DNA of 64,000 bases, from NCBI GenBank assembly GCA_029261875.1, contig JAJDAL010000054.1:1-64000 (forward strand). The letters are read 5' to 3'. Both the position numbers and the translations under genes were made by a program. Below, in pieces: positions 25,939-36,439 of this stretch. The notes under the pieces were generated by a model. The model had not been told where the DNA came from. It saw only the letters and a program-made list of their open reading frames with translations, and ran no database searches. This DNA is from Deltaproteobacteria bacterium (lineage in GTDB: Bacteria > Myxococcota_A > UBA9160 > JAJDAL01). Within the stretch, counting starts at the first letter, position 1. Each line of letters opens with the position of its first letter.

Positions 25939-26556
25939 ATGACCGGACCCTCACTGCGTGGGATCGCGCTGACGGGAATCCTGTTGCTCGCCGGGACGAG
26001 CTGTGTCACGTCGCCGCCAAGCAACCTCGACAATGCCTGCGCGATCCTGCACGAGAAAGACGATTGGTATGAAGACACGGCGGGTTCGCGAAAGCGCTGG
26101 GGGCTTCCCATCTCCACGCAGCTCGCGATCGTCCACCAGGAATCGCGCTTTCGCGGCGACGTTCGGCCGCGGCGTCGACGCTTCCTGTGGATCTTTCCCG
26201 GCCCCCGGTTGTCGTCGGCCTACGGCTACTCCCAGGCCCTCGAAAGCACGTGGATGGAATACAAGGAGGCGACCGGGAACCGTGGAGCGGATCGCGACGA
26301 TTTCGCCGACGCGGTGGACTTCATCGGTTGGTACGCAGCCCGCGCCCATTCCCGGCTCGGGATCGCGCTGACGGACACCTACTCCCTGTACCTCGCCTAT
26401 CACGAGGGCCTGGGTGGGTACGCGCGGGGCAGCTACCGCGATCAACCCCACGTGCGCTCCCTGGCGCGCAAGGTGGCGACGCGCGCCGCCGCCTATCGTC
26501 GGCAGCTCCTGGGCTGCGAGGAGAGTCTCCGCCGGCCGTGGTGGCAATTTTGGTAG
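25939..26556 (+). CDS. Lytic-transglycosylase-like (SLT-related) lipoprotein
   Basis: A 205-residue lipoprotein-like protein, with LLLAGTSC ending at Cys22. It matches a family annotated as transglycosylase SLT domain protein that may cleave peptidoglycan glycan strands. Visible motifs are WGLPISTQLAIVHQESRFRG, where the Glu of HQES is the expected catalytic acid, then SSAYGYSQALESTWMEYKEA and YLAYHEGLGGY. The lipobox is imperfect (GTSC). It starts 9 bp after the TSP3 gene. Confidence in the fold is good; enzymatic activity is inferred. Confidence 0.82.
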   Translation: MTGPSLRGIALTGILLLAGTSCVTSPPSNLDNACAILHEKDDWYEDTAGSRKRWGLPISTQLAIVHQESRFRGDVRPRRRRFLWIFPGPRLSSAYGYSQALESTWMEYKEATGNRGADRDDFADAVDFIGWYAARAHSRLGIALTDTYSLYLAYHEGLGGYARGSYRDQPHVRSLARKVATRAAAYRRQLLGCEESLRRPWWQFW

Positions 26557-26581
26557 GCTCCCGGTTCGGAAGACGAACCGC

Positions 26582-27400
26582 GTGAACGAAAACCAATCGA
26601 ACTCCGTAGCGATCTATCGGCGCCGCATTCGCGCTTCTCTCGAGCGCGTCTGGGAGAACGTGCGCGATTGGGAACATCTGCCGTGGTTGCACCGCGAGGC
26701 CTTTGCGCGGATCGAATTGCTCGAAGCGGGCAGCTGGGGGTGGCGCGCCCGAATCGGGCTTCACGGCGATCCGTCCCCGGAAATCGAAGTCGCACTCCGC
26801 ATCGAATCCGATGCACAACGCTACGTGGCGAGGACCGAGTCAGGTCCCGGTATCGGGACCGAAATCTGGACGCAGCTCCAGGCCGCGGGCGCCGACGCGA
26901 CGGACATCGAAGTGAATTTTTGCATTCCGGGCGTCGCGCCCGCCGAGCGCGATGCGGTTGGACGCGGATACACGGCGCTCTACACCCAACTCTGGGATCA
27001 AGATGAAGCCATGATGATTCGCCGCGCGGAGTTGCTGGGCCGACGGCCAAAGCCGGGCGCAGCCGAAATCGATTTCATCGAGTTGGGTGACCGGGATGCG
27101 CTTCTGCGTCGGCTTCCGCTGTGCGTCGAAGCCTTCGGTCGGCGCGTTCGCATCCTCGACTGCGCGGGAACCCTCGTCGCGCACGACACGGTCTGTCCCC
27201 ACATGCTGGGTCCCCTGGAGGACGCTCGCGTCGAGAATGGGGCTGTGGTCTGCCCCTGGCACGGCTACCGCTTCGACTTGGCGTCGGGGTGTGAAACGTC
27301 CGGAGGACGCCTGCGGATGTTTCCCGCCCCGCGCGTCGAAATCGACGGCCGGTCGAATCGGGTTCGGCTGGTGCGGGGCCCCGCAGCTTCGACCCGCTGA
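26582..27400 (+). CDS. SRPBCC domain fused to a C-terminal Rieske [2Fe-2S] domain
   Basis: A 272-residue cytoplasmic protein. The N-terminal 150 residues look like an SRPBCC/START hydrophobic-pocket fold (IRASLERVWENVRDWEHLPW). The C-terminal third is a Rieske domain with both ligand pairs, CPH then 16 residues then CPWH. In ring-hydroxylating oxygenase alpha subunits the Rieske domain comes first and is followed by a larger iron catalytic domain. Here the order is reversed and I see no mononuclear-iron site. GTG 26582 is preceded by GGAAG, which lies in the loop of a 7-bp hairpin (26562-26580). The partner reductase and the substrate are unknown. Confidence 0.82.
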   Translation: MNENQSNSVAIYRRRIRASLERVWENVRDWEHLPWLHREAFARIELLEAGSWGWRARIGLHGDPSPEIEVALRIESDAQRYVARTESGPGIGTEIWTQLQAAGADATDIEVNFCIPGVAPAERDAVGRGYTALYTQLWDQDEAMMIRRAELLGRRPKPGAAEIDFIELGDRDALLRRLPLCVEAFGRRVRILDCAGTLVAHDTVCPHMLGPLEDARVENGAVVCPWHGYRFDLASGCETSGGRLRMFPAPRVEIDGRSNRVRLVRGPAASTR

Positions 27401-29259: not shown

Positions 29260-32200
29260 CTAGAGATTCCAATGGATATCGAGGCGCGGGTCCGGGTTGT
29301 AGGAGACGAAGGTCCCGGTCTTGATCGTCGCGTTGAGGTGTTGGGTCAGGGCTTCGTGGTGTTCCGCGAGTCTTCGCAGCGCGGAACGGATCGCCTTGGT
29401 GACGTTGAGGCGCGCGCGTTCGGACTCGGAGTTGCATTTCCGGTCGCGACCCCCAAGGCCGATGGCCCCCGACAATTCCGCCAAGATGAAGTCGATCTCT
29501 TGTTGGCGGAGGCGGGCGCGCTCGGGATCGTTGAAGGCGCTGGCTTCTTCGTGTTCCTCGCGGAGGTCGCGCAAGCGGTCGCGATAGGCGCGTTTGGCCG
29601 CGTCGTCGAGGATCGGGCCGGCGTCGCTGGAATGGGTTTTTACAGGTTCGGTGTTGCCGCGAACCGCCGCGTTGAGGGCTGCAGCGTGAAACTCTTCGCC
29701 CGGGTGATGAAGCAGCTCAGCGATGTACCTGAGTCCGACTTGATCGCGCACGCGGATCATTTTTCCCGCGAACACAACCGTCCAATAATCGCCCTCTTTC
29801 CGAAGTTCGTTTTCGAGCGGGGCCGGTAGCGGCGAGGCGACGGTTGCCACCGGTGCGACTTCCCGGCTCTTGCCGAGCCGGGCGACCAGCCGCCCCATTC
29901 CGAGCTGGTCCGCGGTTTCGCGCGCGCGGGCCAACAAATCCTGGGCGCGTTGCTCGTCGTCGGCGAGTCCGCGTCGACGCAGCATCTCGGCATAGGCGAC
30001 CTGGGTGTTGGCGATCCAGGGGCGAGCTCCCATCCGCGCATTCATCGCGAGAGCAGATTCGAAATGGCGGGCGGCGTCGGACCCGCGATCGCAAGCGTCG
30101 GCGAGCAGGCCCAGGTAGTGATGGGTCGAGCCCAAACAGGCGATTCCCAGACCGAGCGTCGCGTTCTGCTCCGCGTGGGGCGTGAGAATCGCGTAGAGCC
30201 GTTCCGCGTGATCGCGCGCGCCAATCTCGGCGGCGGTTTCCGCGAGCAGGAGCAAGGAGAACAATCCGTGTCGATCGTCTCGAAGTCGATCGAAACCACT
30301 GGCGGCGAAGCGCTCCAACTCCGCACGCGCAGCTTCCACATATCCGAGATCGCAGTGGACGCGCGTCAAGGTCGCGCGCCAGCCCGGCAGAGTAGGAGAC
30401 TGGGATGCGCGCCGTTTCAGGGGTTCTTCGAGTTCGCGAAGCCGTCCCTGGTGCGTTCGCGCGAAGAAGATCTGCGCGGTGAATACCTGGGACGCACTGC
30501 GCGGGATGAAGTGCTCGCCCATGTTGGCTGCATCCTGGGCGAAACGCTCGACGTCTTCGAAGTGGCCATCGAGAAGCGCGCGCAGGGCGCGGTAACGCAA
30601 TACAGACCAGAGGAAACTCGGACGCTGAAGCTCTTCCGCTCCAGCGGCGAAGATTTCGAGCTCTGCGTCCGCGGCCGCGATGTCGCCGACTTCGAGCAGT
30701 GCGAGGAGGCGCCAGCTGCGGCCGGCGAGTTCCAGAACCCGATCGTTGGCGCTTTCCGCCAAACGAACGATTTCTCCGGCTCCCTCCAGACGCTCGTGGA
30801 CATGCGCGGGGTCGTAGTCGGTCCATTGACGCTGGAGCAACGTGAAGGCCAGCACGCTGGGTTCGTTCTCGAGGCGCGCCAACTCGATGGCTTCGCGACC
30901 CAAACGGTCCGAGCGTTCCGGTTCCCGGGAAAGCCCCAAGGCAACCGACAATCGGCTCGTGAGTTTTGCGCGGAGTCCGCGGTGGGCGTCGCCCAGGGCC
31001 GTGATGGCCCCTTCTATCTCGTCCACCAGAGATTTCTCGACCCATTCGTAGTCGATCGCGACGCTACTCAGGCCGAGCGCCGCCTGAGCGCGCTGGACAT
31101 GGAGGCCGGCGCGCTTGGAAATCTCCAGAGCGCGGACGAACACCGCCCGGGCCTTGGCTGCGTCTCCGGCGCTCTCACAAGCATTTCCCAGGGCGACGGT
31201 CAGCTCGGCCTGTTCGCGATCTTCGGCACCCGTGCGAAGTTCGAGTGCCTGGAGTGCGCGTTCGAGGTGGGTGACCGCTTGCTCGTAGGCGAGCATGTCG
31301 CGGGCTTGTTCGGCCGCGCAACGCGCATACCGAACTGCGCGATCGGCCTGGCCCAAGGGGGCGGCCTGGAAAAAGTGGTAGGACAGCTCCGAAAGGTACG
31401 GGGCCAGGTTTCCGTCGGCGCGCGCTTCCAGGGCTTCGGCAACGCGCGCATGGAGACTCAAGCGGCGCGAGGCGGTCAGCTCTTCGTAGAGCGCGTCCTG
31501 CAGAATGGCGTGGGAAAAACGATAGCGACCCGGAACGCCATCGACCTCCGTGACGACGTGGGCCTGACTGGCTGCGTCGAGGGTGGCGAGCAAATTGGAT
31601 TGGGATTGCTGGGATACCGGTTCCAGGATGGAGAGATCGAAGCGGCGCCCGATTACACAGGCACAGCGCAATACGTGGAGAATGTCTTCGGAGAGGTATT
31701 GGAAGCGGTGACGCACCAGATCCCGAACGCTGCGGGGAAGCGAAATGCGCTGGACCGCGGAGGAATGGCCCATGGTGTCTTCCGACAGCATCATCCGAAC
31801 GGTTTCCGTAACGAAGAACGGGTTGCCTTCGGTCTTCTCGTGAATGCGTTTGGTGAGGGCTTTGGGAATGCGCGTGCCCGCGACATTTTCGATCAGCTGC
31901 TGGGTTTCCTGTAGGGAGAGCCCGCGGAGCGCGATTTGGCGGCAGGTGGGCCGTGTGCGCAAGCTTTCGAAACTATCGTTGGCGGGGGCCGGCCGAGTTG
32001 CGATCAGATCCCGGTAGGAGCCGAGTACCAACAGGTTGGCATCCGCGATCTCGCGCGTCAGGAAGCGCATGAGCAGGACCGTCGAGGGGTCGGCCCAGTG
32101 CAGGTCATCGAGGAAAAGCAGCAACGGCGTGTCTTGGCCGAGCTTCTTCAGAAAGAGTGTGATGCCATCGAACAGCCGAAAGCGGGTTTGTTCGGAATCG

Positions 32201-32625
32201 AGCAGCGAATCCGTAGCGCCGCGTGCAGCCGGGCGGCGCAATTCCGGGATGAGTTCCCCGAGTACCGAAGCGGCGGGGCCGAGTTCGCGGCAAAGTGCTT
32301 CGGCATCGACGTCGCGGGTGAGATCTCGGAGCACCTGGACCCAGGGCCAGAAAGGCGGTGTTCCCGGGGTTTCCTGACAGCGACCGGTCACGATTCGAAG
32401 TCCGGCGTCGCGCGCGTACTCGGCGATCTCCGCCGCGGTGCGGCTCTTCCCGATCCCGGGTTCGCCGACCAGCATGATCGCCCGCCCGGACCCGTGGCCC
32501 ACGTGGTCGACAGCGGATTTCAGCTCTTCGAGAATCGACTCGCGCCCGACGAAACCGCGCGCTTGTTCGGCGGAACGGTCCGTCCAGGGGGCCCTCTCCA
32601 GATTTCGACTTCGTGCTTCACTCAA
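29260..32625 (-). CDS. MalT-like AAA ATPase / TPR regulator with conserved C-terminal domain
   Basis: An 1,121-residue cytosolic signalling ATPase. Residues 20-300 form a STAND/AAA-16 type NTPase with Walker A GEPGIGKS at 54-61, Walker B LLLFLDDLHW and QIALRGLSLQETQQLI. Then come a winged-helix-like stretch (SLPRSVRDLVRHRFQYLSED) and about 450 residues of TPR-like helical repeats. The last 170 residues start at YWTVVFAGKMIRVRDQVGLRY and end TGTFVSYNPDPRLDIHWNL. They are shared with the next gene upstream, so this is a distinct domain. No LuxR-type helix-turn-helix is visible. It starts at TTG 32625, with only a weak ribosome site. Its ligand and targets are unknown. Confidence 0.82.
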   Translation of the reverse strand: MSEARSRNLERAPWTDRSAEQARGFVGRESILEELKSAVDHVGHGSGRAIMLVGEPGIGKSRTAAEIAEYARDAGLRIVTGRCQETPGTPPFWPWVQVLRDLTRDVDAEALCRELGPAASVLGELIPELRRPAARGATDSLLDSEQTRFRLFDGITLFLKKLGQDTPLLLFLDDLHWADPSTVLLMRFLTREIADANLLVLGSYRDLIATRPAPANDSFESLRTRPTCRQIALRGLSLQETQQLIENVAGTRIPKALTKRIHEKTEGNPFFVTETVRMMLSEDTMGHSSAVQRISLPRSVRDLVRHRFQYLSEDILHVLRCACVIGRRFDLSILEPVSQQSQSNLLATLDAASQAHVVTEVDGVPGRYRFSHAILQDALYEELTASRRLSLHARVAEALEARADGNLAPYLSELSYHFFQAAPLGQADRAVRYARCAAEQARDMLAYEQAVTHLERALQALELRTGAEDREQAELTVALGNACESAGDAAKARAVFVRALEISKRAGLHVQRAQAALGLSSVAIDYEWVEKSLVDEIEGAITALGDAHRGLRAKLTSRLSVALGLSREPERSDRLGREAIELARLENEPSVLAFTLLQRQWTDYDPAHVHERLEGAGEIVRLAESANDRVLELAGRSWRLLALLEVGDIAAADAELEIFAAGAEELQRPSFLWSVLRYRALRALLDGHFEDVERFAQDAANMGEHFIPRSASQVFTAQIFFARTHQGRLRELEEPLKRRASQSPTLPGWRATLTRVHCDLGYVEAARAELERFAASGFDRLRDDRHGLFSLLLLAETAAEIGARDHAERLYAILTPHAEQNATLGLGIACLGSTHHYLGLLADACDRGSDAARHFESALAMNARMGARPWIANTQVAYAEMLRRRGLADDEQRAQDLLARARETADQLGMGRLVARLGKSREVAPVATVASPLPAPLENELRKEGDYWTVVFAGKMIRVRDQVGLRYIAELLHHPGEEFHAAALNAAVRGNTEPVKTHSSDAGPILDDAAKRAYRDRLRDLREEHEEASAFNDPERARLRQQEIDFILAELSGAIGLGGRDRKCNSESERARLNVTKAIRSALRRLAEHHEALTQHLNATIKTGTFVSYNPDPRLDIHWNL

Positions 32626-32854
32626 ACCTGTCGCTTCTCCCAGGAACAGAATCTCATAGGGAGTCTGTCCCTGGGAAGGTCGGCACGCGTCCGGGACTGA
32701 TGGTTATTGAGATCAATCGGGTCGATCGGCACCAAGAGCGATTGAAAACGTCGAAAAACCGTTTCGATTTTTTGGTGTTGCCCGGTTTCTGGGCCGATCC
32801 GGGGAGCGTCGAACCCCGCGCAAGTGGCGGGTTTAACATGATAAAGGGGGGGTC

Positions 32855-33676
32855 CTAGATGTCCCAGGCGATCGGAAGGTCGGGAGCCGGGCAATAGGAC
32901 ACGAAGATTCCCGTGCGAATCGAAGAGGTCAGGTGAGTTCCCAGACTGGAGTCGAGTTTCGCGATATTGGCGATCGCGGAGCGAAGGTTGCGCGTGACAC
33001 TGACGCGAGCACGCTCGCTGTTGGACCCCAGCGTCCGGTCTCGCCCGGAGAGCCCCACGGCGCGATTGAGTTCCGCGTCGAGAAACGCGATCTCGGCTTC
33101 CACGTTTTCGACGGGTTCGCGCCGTTTCCGGAGAAGGGATCGCTCCGCCCGCAGTTCGTCGAGGCGTCGGCGGTAGCTTCGCTTGGCTTCGCGGTCGAGG
33201 ATCGCTCCGCCGTCTGCGGCCGAGACGCGCGGGGAAGCGTCCGGGTCCGGGCTTCGATGGGTGAGCGCGATCAGTTCTGCGGCATGGACTTCCTCGCCGG
33301 GCGAGGCGAGCAGGCAGGCGAGGTAGCGCAGGCCCTTCTGGTCTTTGAGGCGCAACAGGCGGTCGCCGTAGCGAAGGGTCCAGAAATCCCCGTCGCGACG
33401 GAATCGGTGGATTTCGCATGGGTCTTCACGGCTTCCAGCCGACCCGCCCATTTCGCATTCGGCGGCGCGAACCCGATCGAGGAGCGGTGCCATGCCCAGC
33501 TCCGTTGCGGTCTCTCGGGCGCGTTGTAGGAGTTCGTGGATTCCCCCAGCGCCGGCGCGGGCATTCGAATCCGATCGGGCCCGCGCGAGTCCAGATCGCG
33601 CATGCGCGACACCGGGTCGGTTCGCGATGGCGGTGTCGGATAGTGCTGCCGATTGTTTGCCGCTCACGACTCCCAC
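32855..33676 (-). CDS. Stand-alone copy of the regulator's C-terminal domain
   Basis: A 273-residue protein. From residue 95 on (FWTLRYGDRLLRLKDQKGLRY, AILDREAKRSYRRRLDELRA, GLSGRDRTLGSNSERARVSV, RTGIFVSYCPAPDLPIAWDI) it matches the last 170 residues of the 1,121-residue regulator downstream, motif for motif. It also keeps a short piece of preceding helix (LLQRARETATELGMAPLLDRV), equivalent to the last TPR of the large protein, but lacks the ATPase. It is either a truncated duplicate or a functional partner. GTG 33676 follows AGAGGGAGAA closely; GTG 33667 is equally possible. It is separated from the large regulator gene by 229 bp with no clear terminator. Confidence 0.75.
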   Translation of the reverse strand: MGVVSGKQSAALSDTAIANRPGVAHARSGLARARSDSNARAGAGGIHELLQRARETATELGMAPLLDRVRAAECEMGGSAGSREDPCEIHRFRRDGDFWTLRYGDRLLRLKDQKGLRYLACLLASPGEEVHAAELIALTHRSPDPDASPRVSAADGGAILDREAKRSYRRRLDELRAERSLLRKRREPVENVEAEIAFLDAELNRAVGLSGRDRTLGSNSERARVSVTRNLRSAIANIAKLDSSLGTHLTSSIRTGIFVSYCPAPDLPIAWDI

Positions 33677-33751: not shown

Positions 33752-34702
33752 CTAGAGCGAGCGGCTACGACGCCGGGCGGCGGCCAGGCCGAGGGTACCG
33801 AGGCTCATGAGCACCCAGGTCGAAGGCTCCGGAACGACGGTGAAGCCCAGGAGCATGCTCTGGTCTTCGAAGACGACCCAGAACTCCTGACCGTTGACCG
33901 CGATGCCTTCGGGATCGTTGCAGCCGTCGCCGTCGCGCATTTCGTCGCAGCCGGCGATGTTCAGCGTGAGGCCCTGCATGTCTTCGGTCTGATCGACGAT
34001 GGCGCCCGTGGTGGGATCCATCAGGAAGATGCGCGAGCGATTACCGCCGGAACTGTCGTCGGAGAACATGATGAGGTTGCCGAACAGATCCATGCCCGAG
34101 GGGTCATCGAAGGGATCACCCGGCGTCGGAAAGTTGTTCAGAACCGATCCGTCGAGGCCAATCTCGATGATGCGGCCATTTTCATTGACCCCTTCCTCGT
34201 CGCCAAAGAAGACCGTGTTGTTTGCGACGTGGAAGAACGCGGACTCGTTCTCCGGTGGGAAACCTCCGACGCTCGGCAAGCTGATGTCGATGCCGCCGGC
34301 AATCACCGAGCCGTCGACGGCGGAGATTTCCACGACGCGCTGGTCTTTGGCGAGCGAGGCGAGCAGGTTGCCGTTCGGGAGCAGGTCGAGACCCCGCATG
34401 GCTTCGAAGTTGACGGTGAAGCTTCCGAGATCCGAACCGTCGCTGCCGACTTTCTGGATGACGGTGATGTCGTTGAAGCCCTGGGGGATTTCGCGGCTTA
34501 CGTAGAGAATGTCGATGCCGCCGGGGCCCGCACCGGGATCGATGGCGAGTCCCTCGGGCTCGGGGGCGAGGCTGATCAAGTCGATCGCGACGTTGAACTG
34601 GATCTCGAGGGCCTGACTGGCCGTGGATCCAAGCGCGACTCCCGCCGCCAATACACCGAGGGCCAAACCTCGAACCGAAACAAGACCGAACCGCTTTGTC
34701 AT
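33752..34702 (-). CDS. PEP-CTERM surface protein, beta-propeller-like
   Basis: A 316-residue exported protein. The signal peptide begins MTKRFGLVSVRGLALGVLAA and the mature part begins near LEIQFNV. Repeated strand motifs (EPEGLAIDPGAG, RGLDLLPNGNLLASL, DPSGMDLFGNLIMFSDD, DPEGIAVNGQEFWVVFED) suggest a six-bladed NHL/SMP-30-like propeller. The C-terminus carries a PEP-CTERM sorting signal: VPEPSTW, a hydrophobic helix, then RRRSRS. Such tails are recognised and cut by exosortase (EpsH/XrtA) in exopolysaccharide-producing bacteria. No exosortase is in the window. ATG 34702 has GGGAG seven bases upstream and is preferred over 34735. Confidence 0.85.
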   Translation of the reverse strand: MTKRFGLVSVRGLALGVLAAGVALGSTASQALEIQFNVAIDLISLAPEPEGLAIDPGAGPGGIDILYVSREIPQGFNDITVIQKVGSDGSDLGSFTVNFEAMRGLDLLPNGNLLASLAKDQRVVEISAVDGSVIAGGIDISLPSVGGFPPENESAFFHVANNTVFFGDEEGVNENGRIIEIGLDGSVLNNFPTPGDPFDDPSGMDLFGNLIMFSDDSSGGNRSRIFLMDPTTGAIVDQTEDMQGLTLNIAGCDEMRDGDGCNDPEGIAVNGQEFWVVFEDQSMLLGFTVVPEPSTWVLMSLGTLGLAAARRRSRSL

Positions 34703-34797
34703 CTCTGTACTCCCAAGACTCGCGTTTGGACGCACGGGGCGCTCGACGAGAGCGGCCCGTGTGCGTTGAAAATCTCCGAGGGGCTATCCCACCAAAC

Positions 34798-34904: not shown

Positions 34905-35390
34905 CTAGGGGATGGGGAGGATTTCGGTTTGGCCGGTGGCGGGGTCGTAGCGAAAGGCACTTCCGTTCGAGTAGGTGAACAGGGCCTTGGGGGACACCGG
35001 GGGGCCGACGCGGGTGACGACCCAATCTCCATCGGGACCGGTATCGAGGCCGCCGGTGACCAGGCCACCGAACAGGTTGAGGACCGCAATCCTTTCGTCG
35101 GGCTCCTGGACTGCATCCTCGAGGGCGGGCCAGCCCGCGTTAGTGACGGAGATCAACACGCCGTCGCCCCGATCCACGGGATTCTGACGCCGGTTCGTGA
35201 GCCAGACGGCGTGGATGAGTTTGGCGCTCGAGTCGAAGGCGCTGCGGGTGGTCTCGAACGTGGTCTCGTGGGCGCGTGCCGCGGTATCGACGTACCGGGG
35301 TAGGGCGATAGCGGCGAGGATCCCCAGGATGACGATGACGACGACCAACTCCATCAGCGTAAAAGCTTGCTTACGTGTCTGTCGGGCCAT
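34905..35390 (-). CDS. Type IV prepilin, MshA-like
   Basis: A 161-residue prepilin. The short positive leader MARQTRKQA is followed by FTLMELVVVIVILGILAA, the class III signal cleaved and N-methylated by PilD, with Glu5 of the mature pilin present. The residue before the cleavage point is Ala rather than the usual Gly. IVILGILAAIALPRYVD is typical of MSHA pilins and type II pseudopilins. The C-terminal globular part is short and lacks an obvious Cys pair. ATG 35390 has AGGAG seven bases upstream, and a sigma-54 promoter lies 33-48 bp upstream. It fits an MSHA-like pilus together with the MshQ-like genes at 0.8-19.4 kb. Confidence 0.87.
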   Translation of the reverse strand: MARQTRKQAFTLMELVVVIVILGILAAIALPRYVDTAARAHETTFETTRSAFDSSAKLIHAVWLTNRRQNPVDRGDGVLISVTNAGWPALEDAVQEPDERIAVLNLFGGLVTGGLDTGPDGDWVVTRVGPPVSPKALFTYSNGSAFRYDPATGQTEILPIP

Positions 35391-35719: not shown

Positions 35720-36439
35720 TTGGCGGCTGGGCTCGAGGAGTCGTTTGAGCAGGCGTTGCGATCCCTTTGGATCGCGTTCCAGCCGGTCGTCCGAGCTGGG
35801 CCACGCGACACCTTCGGCTTCGAGGCGTTGGTGCGCTCGAGCCATTCGACCCTAAGCAACCCTCCGGCGCTGTTCGACACCGCGGATCAATTGGGCTGCG
35901 TGATGGAACTCGAGCAAGCCATCCGTCGCTGCGTGGCGGAGCGGGTTTCGAACGCACCGGATGGGACGGTTCTGCTCGTCAACCTGCACCCGATGTCCCT
36001 CAACGACCCGGATCTGTTCTCCAACGATGACCCCCTGTTCCCGTGGGCCGAGCGAATCGTGCTCGAAGTCACCGAGCGCGCATCGCTCGAAACCGTGGTC
36101 GATGTGGAGGAGAAGGTGGCCGAGTTGCGGCGTCGCGGTTTCCGCATCGCCATCGACGACCTCGGGTCGGGCTACGCGGGGCTGACGAGCTTGGCGCTGT
36201 TGCACCCGGAATTCGTGAAGTTCGACATGTCGCTCGTTCGCGATGTCGAAATGTCCCAGACCAAGAGTCGTCTGATTGGATCCATGGCTTCGCTGTGTCG
36301 CGAACTCGGAATCCAAACCGTTGCCGAAGGAATCGAGCGCCCGGCGGAACGGGATCGGATCGTGGACCTCGGGTGTGACTACATGCAGGGTTACTTGTTC
36401 GGAAGGCCCGCAAAGGGATTCGCGCCGGGATGCGGTTGA
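35720..36439 (+). CDS. Stand-alone EAL-domain cyclic-di-GMP phosphodiesterase
   Basis: A 239-residue single-domain EAL protein, which would linearise c-di-GMP to pGpG in the cytosol. All metal and catalytic positions are present: EAL at 35-37, Asn88 (VNLHP), Glu116 (LEVTE), Asp146-Asp147 (IDDLGSGYAG), Lys167 (FVKFD), Glu203 (AEGIE) and Gln223 (MQGYLFGRP). It should therefore be active rather than a degenerate receptor. There is no sensor, GGDEF or membrane segment. It starts at TTG 35720 with GGTGAGG seven bases upstream. It is divergent from the pilin gene and in the same neighbourhood as two c-di-GMP riboswitches, so local control of the second messenger is plausible. Confidence 0.92.
   Translation: MAAGLEESFEQALRSLWIAFQPVVRAGPRDTFGFEALVRSSHSTLSNPPALFDTADQLGCVMELEQAIRRCVAERVSNAPDGTVLLVNLHPMSLNDPDLFSNDDPLFPWAERIVLEVTERASLETVVDVEEKVAELRRRGFRIAIDDLGSGYAGLTSLALLHPEFVKFDMSLVRDVEMSQTKSRLIGSMASLCRELGIQTVAEGIERPAERDRIVDLGCDYMQGYLFGRPAKGFAPGCG

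Follow-up and report, generated by a model that had tools for sequence, protein, structure and literature searches.

A putative OmpR-like DNA-binding output at the C terminus of a STAND-like ATPase and in a sensor-less relative encoded beside it

We analyzed a 64,000-nucleotide stretch from a Deltaproteobacteria bacterium (Myxococcota_A lineage; assembly GCA_029261875.1, contig JAJDAL010000054.1, positions 1 to 64,000; hereafter the window) in which two genes on the minus strand, separated by 229 bp, encode proteins that end in a related domain. The large gene (29260..32625, TTG start) encodes a STAND-like AAA_16-TPR protein of 1,121 residues and the short gene (32855..33676, GTG start) a protein of 273 residues; we refer to their common C-terminal part as domain X. 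We consider it likely that domain X is a cryptic OmpR-like winged helix that serves the STAND-like ATPase as a DNA-binding output, and that the short protein is a relative without the sensor. The fold type is known; new, judging from the predicted models, would be that an OmpR-like winged helix carries a helical insert and forms the output at the C terminus of STAND-like ATPases and of other sensors. If the tail does bind DNA, these proteins would be unrecognized transcription regulators in Candidatus Binatota, Actinomycetota and the phylum of the window.

Predicted fold of the shared domain

BLASTP aligned the large and the short protein with 107/275 identities (39%; 164 bits, E 7e-50), far above chance. 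The similarity started in the last TPR helix (LLxRARETAxxLGM), ahead of a domain X of 184-188 residues. The BLASTP alignment and a comparison with paralogs placed domain X of the large protein at residues 938-1121 (29263..29814); that of the short protein comprised 188 residues (32858..33421). The AAA_16 P-loop ATPase module of the large protein (PF13191, E 2.6e-29, above the cut-off) covered residues 25-200 (32026..32553). Its TPR region extended over approximately residues 438-930 (29836..31314), of which residues 438-504 matched TPR_12 below the cut-off (E 1e-5; 26.1 bits against 30.1 in Pfam) and the remainder, presumably of TPR type as well, aligned with three paralogs. An earlier note made from the sequence alone had described both reading frames, an ATPase architecture and a shared C-terminal domain. 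The frames lay where it had placed them, the AAA_16 match and the sub-cut-off TPR_12 match support the architecture, and the domain is indeed shared, although the region in common extends slightly further than had been described, up to and including the last TPR helix.

We predicted the structure of the short protein's domain with AlphaFold2 from six sequences, which gave a predicted local distance difference test score (pLDDT) of 79.8 and a predicted template modeling score (pTM) of 0.59; four of the five models of this job had a mean pLDDT of 77.8-79.8. The strands (E) and helices (H) followed the order E-E-E-H-(EE)-H-[hairpin]-H-H-E-E, with strands at model residues 3-10, 13-18 and 21-26, helices at 29-39 and 47-55, a helical hairpin at 77-99 and 105-122, helices at 134-156 and 158-167, and strands at 173-176 and 184-187. 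Among the best 50 rows returned by VIA-align, ranks 1-40 were all what we take, in part from their titles, to be OmpR/PhoB-type DNA-binding domains (Z 6.2-8.7, 80-97 superposable residues). The best row was BaeR (4b09_B; Z 8.7, 91 residues, 2.9 Å), and the others included SaeR (8.5), NsrR (8.5), GlnR-DNA (8.1), PhoB-DNA (7.6), ToxR-DNA (7.5), CadC (7.4) and OmpR (6.9) as well as CosR and KdpE. The matched ranges of these 40 rows ran from model residue 1-10 to 177-188 and thus spanned the domain around the insert, while ranks 41-50 (Z 4.9-5.8) held two more OmpR/PhoB-type and eight other chains. Domain X is most likely, on these models, a divergent OmpR/PhoB-type winged helix with a three-stranded N-terminal sheet, helices alpha-1 to alpha-3 and a beta wing. 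The predicted model and the conservation place alpha-3 (the putative recognition helix), the next helix and the wing of the short protein at 32858..33022. A basic stretch before and in alpha-3, along with one residue before the wing, was conserved: Lys or Arg occupied positions 129, 137, 139, 147 and 169 in 97, 97, 100, 92 and 90%, respectively, of up to 39 other domains (an alignment made without L019 and partial matches).

Several results weigh against this assignment, and some of them would fit a fold peculiar to domain X, the OmpR-like model then being an artefact of a shallow alignment. The fifth six-sequence model had a pLDDT of 54.4, and a prediction from three sequences was poor and uninformative (pLDDT 57.2, pTM 0.35); its matches, among the 50 listed, lay on the hairpin or on the hairpin and the helices behind it, and included no winged helix. 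The Foldseek matches all fell short of E 0.001 (KdpE came closest, at E 0.82), although the insert probably spoils its continuous-alignment search, and VIA-align re-examines Foldseek candidates only. Z values of 7-8.7 are moreover near those that VIA-align describes as usual in models lacking clear relatives. When we compared profiles with hhalign, domain X without its insert columns scored a marginal 18.2 against 46 Trans_reg_C domains (probability 3.5%, 49 columns, expected register), a score that 2 of 100 column shuffles reached and that the GerE profile, with 35.2 against the same 46 domains, far exceeded. Against 19 Trans_reg_C domains the score was 16.6 over 72 columns (maximum of 30 shuffles, 14.2) and against three GerE domains 15.8 over 18 columns; we regard the profile comparison as weak support for kinship with Trans_reg_C and do not assign domain X to PF00486. 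A separate fold nevertheless seems quite improbable to us, as it is opposed by the four confident six-sequence models, by the 40 consecutive structural matches from one family and by the length of the domains once the insert is discounted, 96-122 residues, which is near winged-helix domain size.

The insert, situated between alpha-2 and alpha-3, comprised 75 residues in the large protein (29431..29655; helical hairpin plus linkers, delimited by alignment boundaries and predicted helices) and 73 in the short one, and 55-85 residues in 39 of the 41 domains of the same alignment. The two remaining relatives had 1 residue (L129, genome G069) and 4 residues (L026, G055) at this point. The loss in L129 looks recent because L129 agrees with the insert-bearing L030, from the same genus, at 83/96 positions outside the insert. 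In OmpR/PhoB proteins the alpha-2/alpha-3 loop is the transactivation loop. Members of this family contact RNA polymerase through a transactivation loop (PMC3960148, PMC5430869), and the alpha-2/alpha-3 loop of AfsR has seven residues (PMC10936776), compared with the 55-85 residues of the insert. The insert may thus change the polymerase contact or serve dimerization. The natural forms with and without insert offer a direct test system for a changed alpha-2/alpha-3 loop.

On domain X of the two window proteins, every Pfam and NCBIfam model stayed below its cut-off. This agrees, at the level of sequence, with the earlier note's remark that the domain has no familiar helix-turn-helix; at the level of fold the remark is probably wrong, the predicted model being an OmpR/PhoB-type winged helix. 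The note had named a winged-helix match beforehand as evidence against its proposal, and we found one in the predicted structure and not in the sequence. Its phrase "undescribed output module" remains apt insofar as the domain is unnamed in the libraries searched and occupies an output place, but the fold itself is probably a known DNA-binding one. At E 1, Trans_reg_C matched neither of the window proteins nor the large protein's tail alone, and it was absent among the matches listed (25 families) for 39 X domains at E 0.1. The large protein had no match at E 1 to BTAD, to the N-terminal OmpR-type domain or to GerE, and GerE was likewise missing among the 24 families that matched 53 X proteins at E 1e-4. 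The short protein had no match in PADLOC, the viral structure library none to the domain model at E 0.001, and PHROGs gave two models of unknown function on domain X (E 0.008 and 0.02), which were uninformative. DUF4404 and ABC_tran_CTD were the commonest Pfam matches over 39 diverse X domains (8/39 each); we take both for coiled-coil composition matches and set DUF4404 (best E 8.1e-6) aside on this ground. The sub-cut-off matches of VPS11_C, DrmE_C, DUF3209 and TIGR02606 on the large protein's tail were set aside as well. A sequence relation to solved structures was also rejected: 24 chains had E values of at most 1 (lowest 0.021), and the three alignments shown lay mainly on the coiled hairpin, as composition matches would. 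The defence-system identity of the large protein was dismissed as PADLOC gave weak P-loop matches only. Our literature search, which covered few subscription journals, found no account of domain X, and two annotated examples were labeled "AAA family ATPase" and "hypothetical protein".

Position, partners and distribution of domain X

Domain X ended no more than 18 residues from the end of the frame in all 57 frames collected (55 distinct, two loci having been fetched twice). We scanned 53 X proteins for partners, drawn from 58 frames (the 57 and the window's large protein) after L064 and L065 were dropped as duplicates, L068 as a near-duplicate and L132 and L133 as cut; three of those kept (L098, L101 and L130) are cut at contig ends. 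AAA_16 was present in 31 of the 53 and an alpha/beta hydrolase in 2, and no GerE, Trans_reg_C, cyclase or kinase model matched them at E 1e-4. Three more X frames share a part that we presume to be TolB-TPR, a name given by eye, as no search returned the name TolB.

We found domain X at the position that a known output, either a DNA-binding domain or a cyclase, has in related proteins. Of the 19 places with Trans_reg_C in this genome, 12 encode an N-terminal Trans_reg_C domain followed by the same AAA core (phmmer E 9e-50 to 8e-89), and none of these 12 was one of the five X places. Three homologs of the hydrolase partner were scanned, of which two carried GerE and one Trans_reg_C, and one TolB-TPR homolog, chosen for its winged-helix label, carried Trans_reg_C. 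Cyclases also filled the position: of the 40 homologs listed for the entire large protein, 18 had one in place of domain X, and of the 25 listed for the TolB-TPR part, 11 had a cyclase, 2 were labeled winged helix and 12 were unlabeled. Because cyclases often occupy the same place, DNA binding does not follow from the place by itself, and these counts tell against a DNA-binding output. We infer DNA binding because the predicted fold is joined by a basic, conserved third helix, not from the place alone.

A further difficulty is that domain X was appended to QatC-like enzymes in 5 of the 53 proteins and occurred on phage-like contigs, settings that do not readily suggest a role in transcription. 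Together with the cyclases, this favors a winged helix that makes protein-protein contacts (dimerization or docking) in place of DNA contacts, with the hairpin as docking surface. Winged helices can mediate protein contacts. We judge this explanation unlikely, in view of the 12 same-core proteins of this genome that carry Trans_reg_C, the GerE and Trans_reg_C domains of the hydrolase homologs, and the conserved and basic stretch through alpha-3.

We counted five copies of domain X in this genome: four close open frames that are 1,120-1,156 residues long, and the fifth is that of the short protein. They formed one group (94/95) in a tree of 41 domains. Its distribution is patchy and covers two named phyla, Candidatus Binatota and Actinomycetota, besides the window's own. 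At least 46 of 377 sampled genomes of the window's phylum carried it, a lower bound since at most nine candidates per genome were scored (two counts both gave 46, with slightly different members). Within the order, this genome and 59 others, it was present in 12/60, and it was found in 5/148 sampled genomes of the phylum that contains a Candidatus Binataceae genome. The listed genomes of the two phylum samples do not overlap, so the window's own phylum is likely the third with domain X. Plasmid records yielded 4 matches in 72,556, all from Actinomycetota. Two queries against 50,697 phage records gave no match, while 3 of 6 viral-contig scans found relatives, on three contigs in all, and the other 3 none.

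The 12 Trans_reg_C-AAA proteins (among loci L077-L090) show that STAND-like regulators have expanded in this genome. The QatC-X fusions (L123-L127, in G077, G251, G267, G239 and G134) matched QatC of PADLOC (best E 4.7e-55) and had a diverged domain X behind; they are a lead on that defence system. Upstream of one of them and on the same strand (L064, the same place as L124) we observed an unmatched 258-residue frame, a PLD-helicase (E 1.3e-230) and a DUF1156 methyltransferase (E 5e-209). On three phage-like metagenome contigs domain X ended proteins of 396-412 residues (L066:3305-4543, L067:1325-2515 and L068:3341-4531), each encoded directly behind an open reading frame of about 400 residues; two of these three partner frames were scanned and had no Pfam match at E 0.001. 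Nearby, labeled by eye from the translations, were a recombinase-like frame (L066) and a primase/helicase-like region (L067 and L068). The X proteins at L059:958-2004 and L060:3133-4437 (G272) have in common an N-terminal part that by eye looks like a MerR/excisionase-like helix-turn-helix, with no such Pfam match at E 0.01.

The short protein and a candidate operator

The short protein looks like a sensor-less, 5'-truncated older paralog and not a fresh copy of its neighbor's tail. It may serve as a decoy, a constitutive output or a partner, the roles that the earlier note had suggested. It appears truncated because its likeness to the large protein sets in at the last TPR helix, a remnant of which lies at about residues 46-72 (33461..33541; BLASTP and tblastn), between a weakly coding N-terminal part and domain X. 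A recent partial tandem duplication of the large gene's tail was rejected on the tree, in which the large protein's domain formed a pair (97/88) with that of the C57 paralog, and the short protein's domain grouped weakly with C5 and C3 (90/43). We also rejected upstream remnants of the lost ATPase half, since tblastn with the four large proteins, run over the window apart from the large gene, found the short gene and beyond it chance-level matches only, the best at E 0.060 and far away.

Whether the short gene has a function is a question apart from the fold. It could be a functionless, decaying remnant, the large protein being the sole active member, which is compatible with our reading of the large protein; we regard this as a serious possibility, if a somewhat improbable one. 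The weak coding character of the first 85 residues, which speaks against an active short protein, would be expected from decay (GC by codon position 0.776/0.612/0.635, versus 0.697/0.511/0.761 in its domain X), as would the last TPR helix kept as a fragment only and the long branch of its domain (0.93). Yet the frame is intact, a stand-alone form exists elsewhere (L057, a frame of 218 residues), and of the 34 columns with at least 80% conservation in the 39 other domains it keeps 29. Since three of the five lost columns lie in the hairpin, one lies just behind it and the fifth shows the same change as the large protein, the fold core of the short protein is probably under selection. We rank function as a gate-less DNA-binding protein slightly above decay. 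A further stage of reduction may be represented by a 403-residue protein elsewhere (L054:4265-5473, G034), in which, by eye, a worn-down ATPase fragment seems to be joined directly to domain X.

Upstream of the large gene, 13 to 51 bases ahead of its start, we detected an inverted repeat with 16-nucleotide arms and a 7-nucleotide spacer (32638..32676). The arms matched at 14/16 positions, and 1 of 300 resampled sequences contained a repeat as good. The palindrome of its half-sites occurred at one other place in the genome, as did a backward control pattern. The half-site GANTCTG, which was chosen after looking, was found upstream of two other X genes (twice at L007 and once at L008) and was absent upstream of L009 and of the short gene, with the start codons for this search chosen by hand. 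Among control regions, 12/70 contained at least one GANTCTG and 1/70 at least two; without five X-like frames these counts were 9/65 and 0/65. The repeat may be an operator or an RNA stem; it does not stand out convincingly from the controls, and we offer it as a lead only.

Proposed mechanism and relation to known regulators

In the mechanism that we propose, domain X would be the DNA-binding output of a STAND-like switch in the large protein. The TPR region would sense an inducer, the AAA_16 module would exchange ADP for ATP and oligomerize, and the oligomer would present several C-terminal winged helices to DNA. The short protein, which would have lost the ATPase and most of the TPRs and kept the DNA-binding domain, may bind without input; it would then regulate constitutively or compete for sites that both proteins recognize.

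By analogy with AfsR, we suggest that a ligand and ATP together gate the large protein as a regulator. In AfsR the nucleotide-binding oligomerization domain (NOD) and the TPRs keep the OmpR-type domain, which is of the Streptomyces antibiotic regulatory protein (SARP) type, inhibited, and binding of ATP relieves the inhibition; SARPs come in large and small versions (PMC10936776). Like AfsR and the large SARPs, the large protein appears to combine a STAND-like ATPase and a putative TPR region with an OmpR-type output, here a predicted one. Unlike in AfsR, where the DNA-binding domain is N-terminal and followed by a BTA domain, the output is C-terminal and no BTAD match was found at E 1.

Compared with the OmpR/PhoB family (Trans_reg_C, PF00486), domain X has the same predicted order of strands and helices, and this genome has PF00486 beside the same AAA core. 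It differs from that family in having no Pfam match in the window proteins, in the insert of 39/41 domains and in its C-terminal, not N-terminal, place on the AAA-TPR core. The Trans_reg_C-AAA_16 proteins at 12 places of this genome have a homologous ATPase core but a recognizable, N-terminal winged helix. MalT consists of an ATPase, a TPR-type sensor and a C-terminal GerE helix-turn-helix output. The earlier note had called the large protein MalT-like, which suits the layout of ATPase, putative TPR-type sensor and C-terminal output but not the output itself, as there was no GerE match; in addition the ATPase matches AAA_16, and the genome has no NB-ARC match.

A bolder and rather doubtful extension is that domain X founds a widespread OmpR-type output family missing from the libraries that we searched. 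In that family the hairpin would replace the polymerase loop and make a new contact with the polymerase or between subunits. The domain would have been plugged into STAND ATPases, hydrolases, TolB-TPR proteins, QatC-like enzymes and mobile elements, and its stand-alone copies would be regulators that share operators with their full-length neighbors, in the way that small SARPs occur beside large ones.

The two genes are flanked in the window by a gene for a Rieske protein (26414-27400) on one side and by one for a PEP-CTERM phytase-like protein (33752-34735) on the other. Further along lie genes for a pilin-like N_methyl protein (34905-35390) and an EAL-domain protein (35720-36439).

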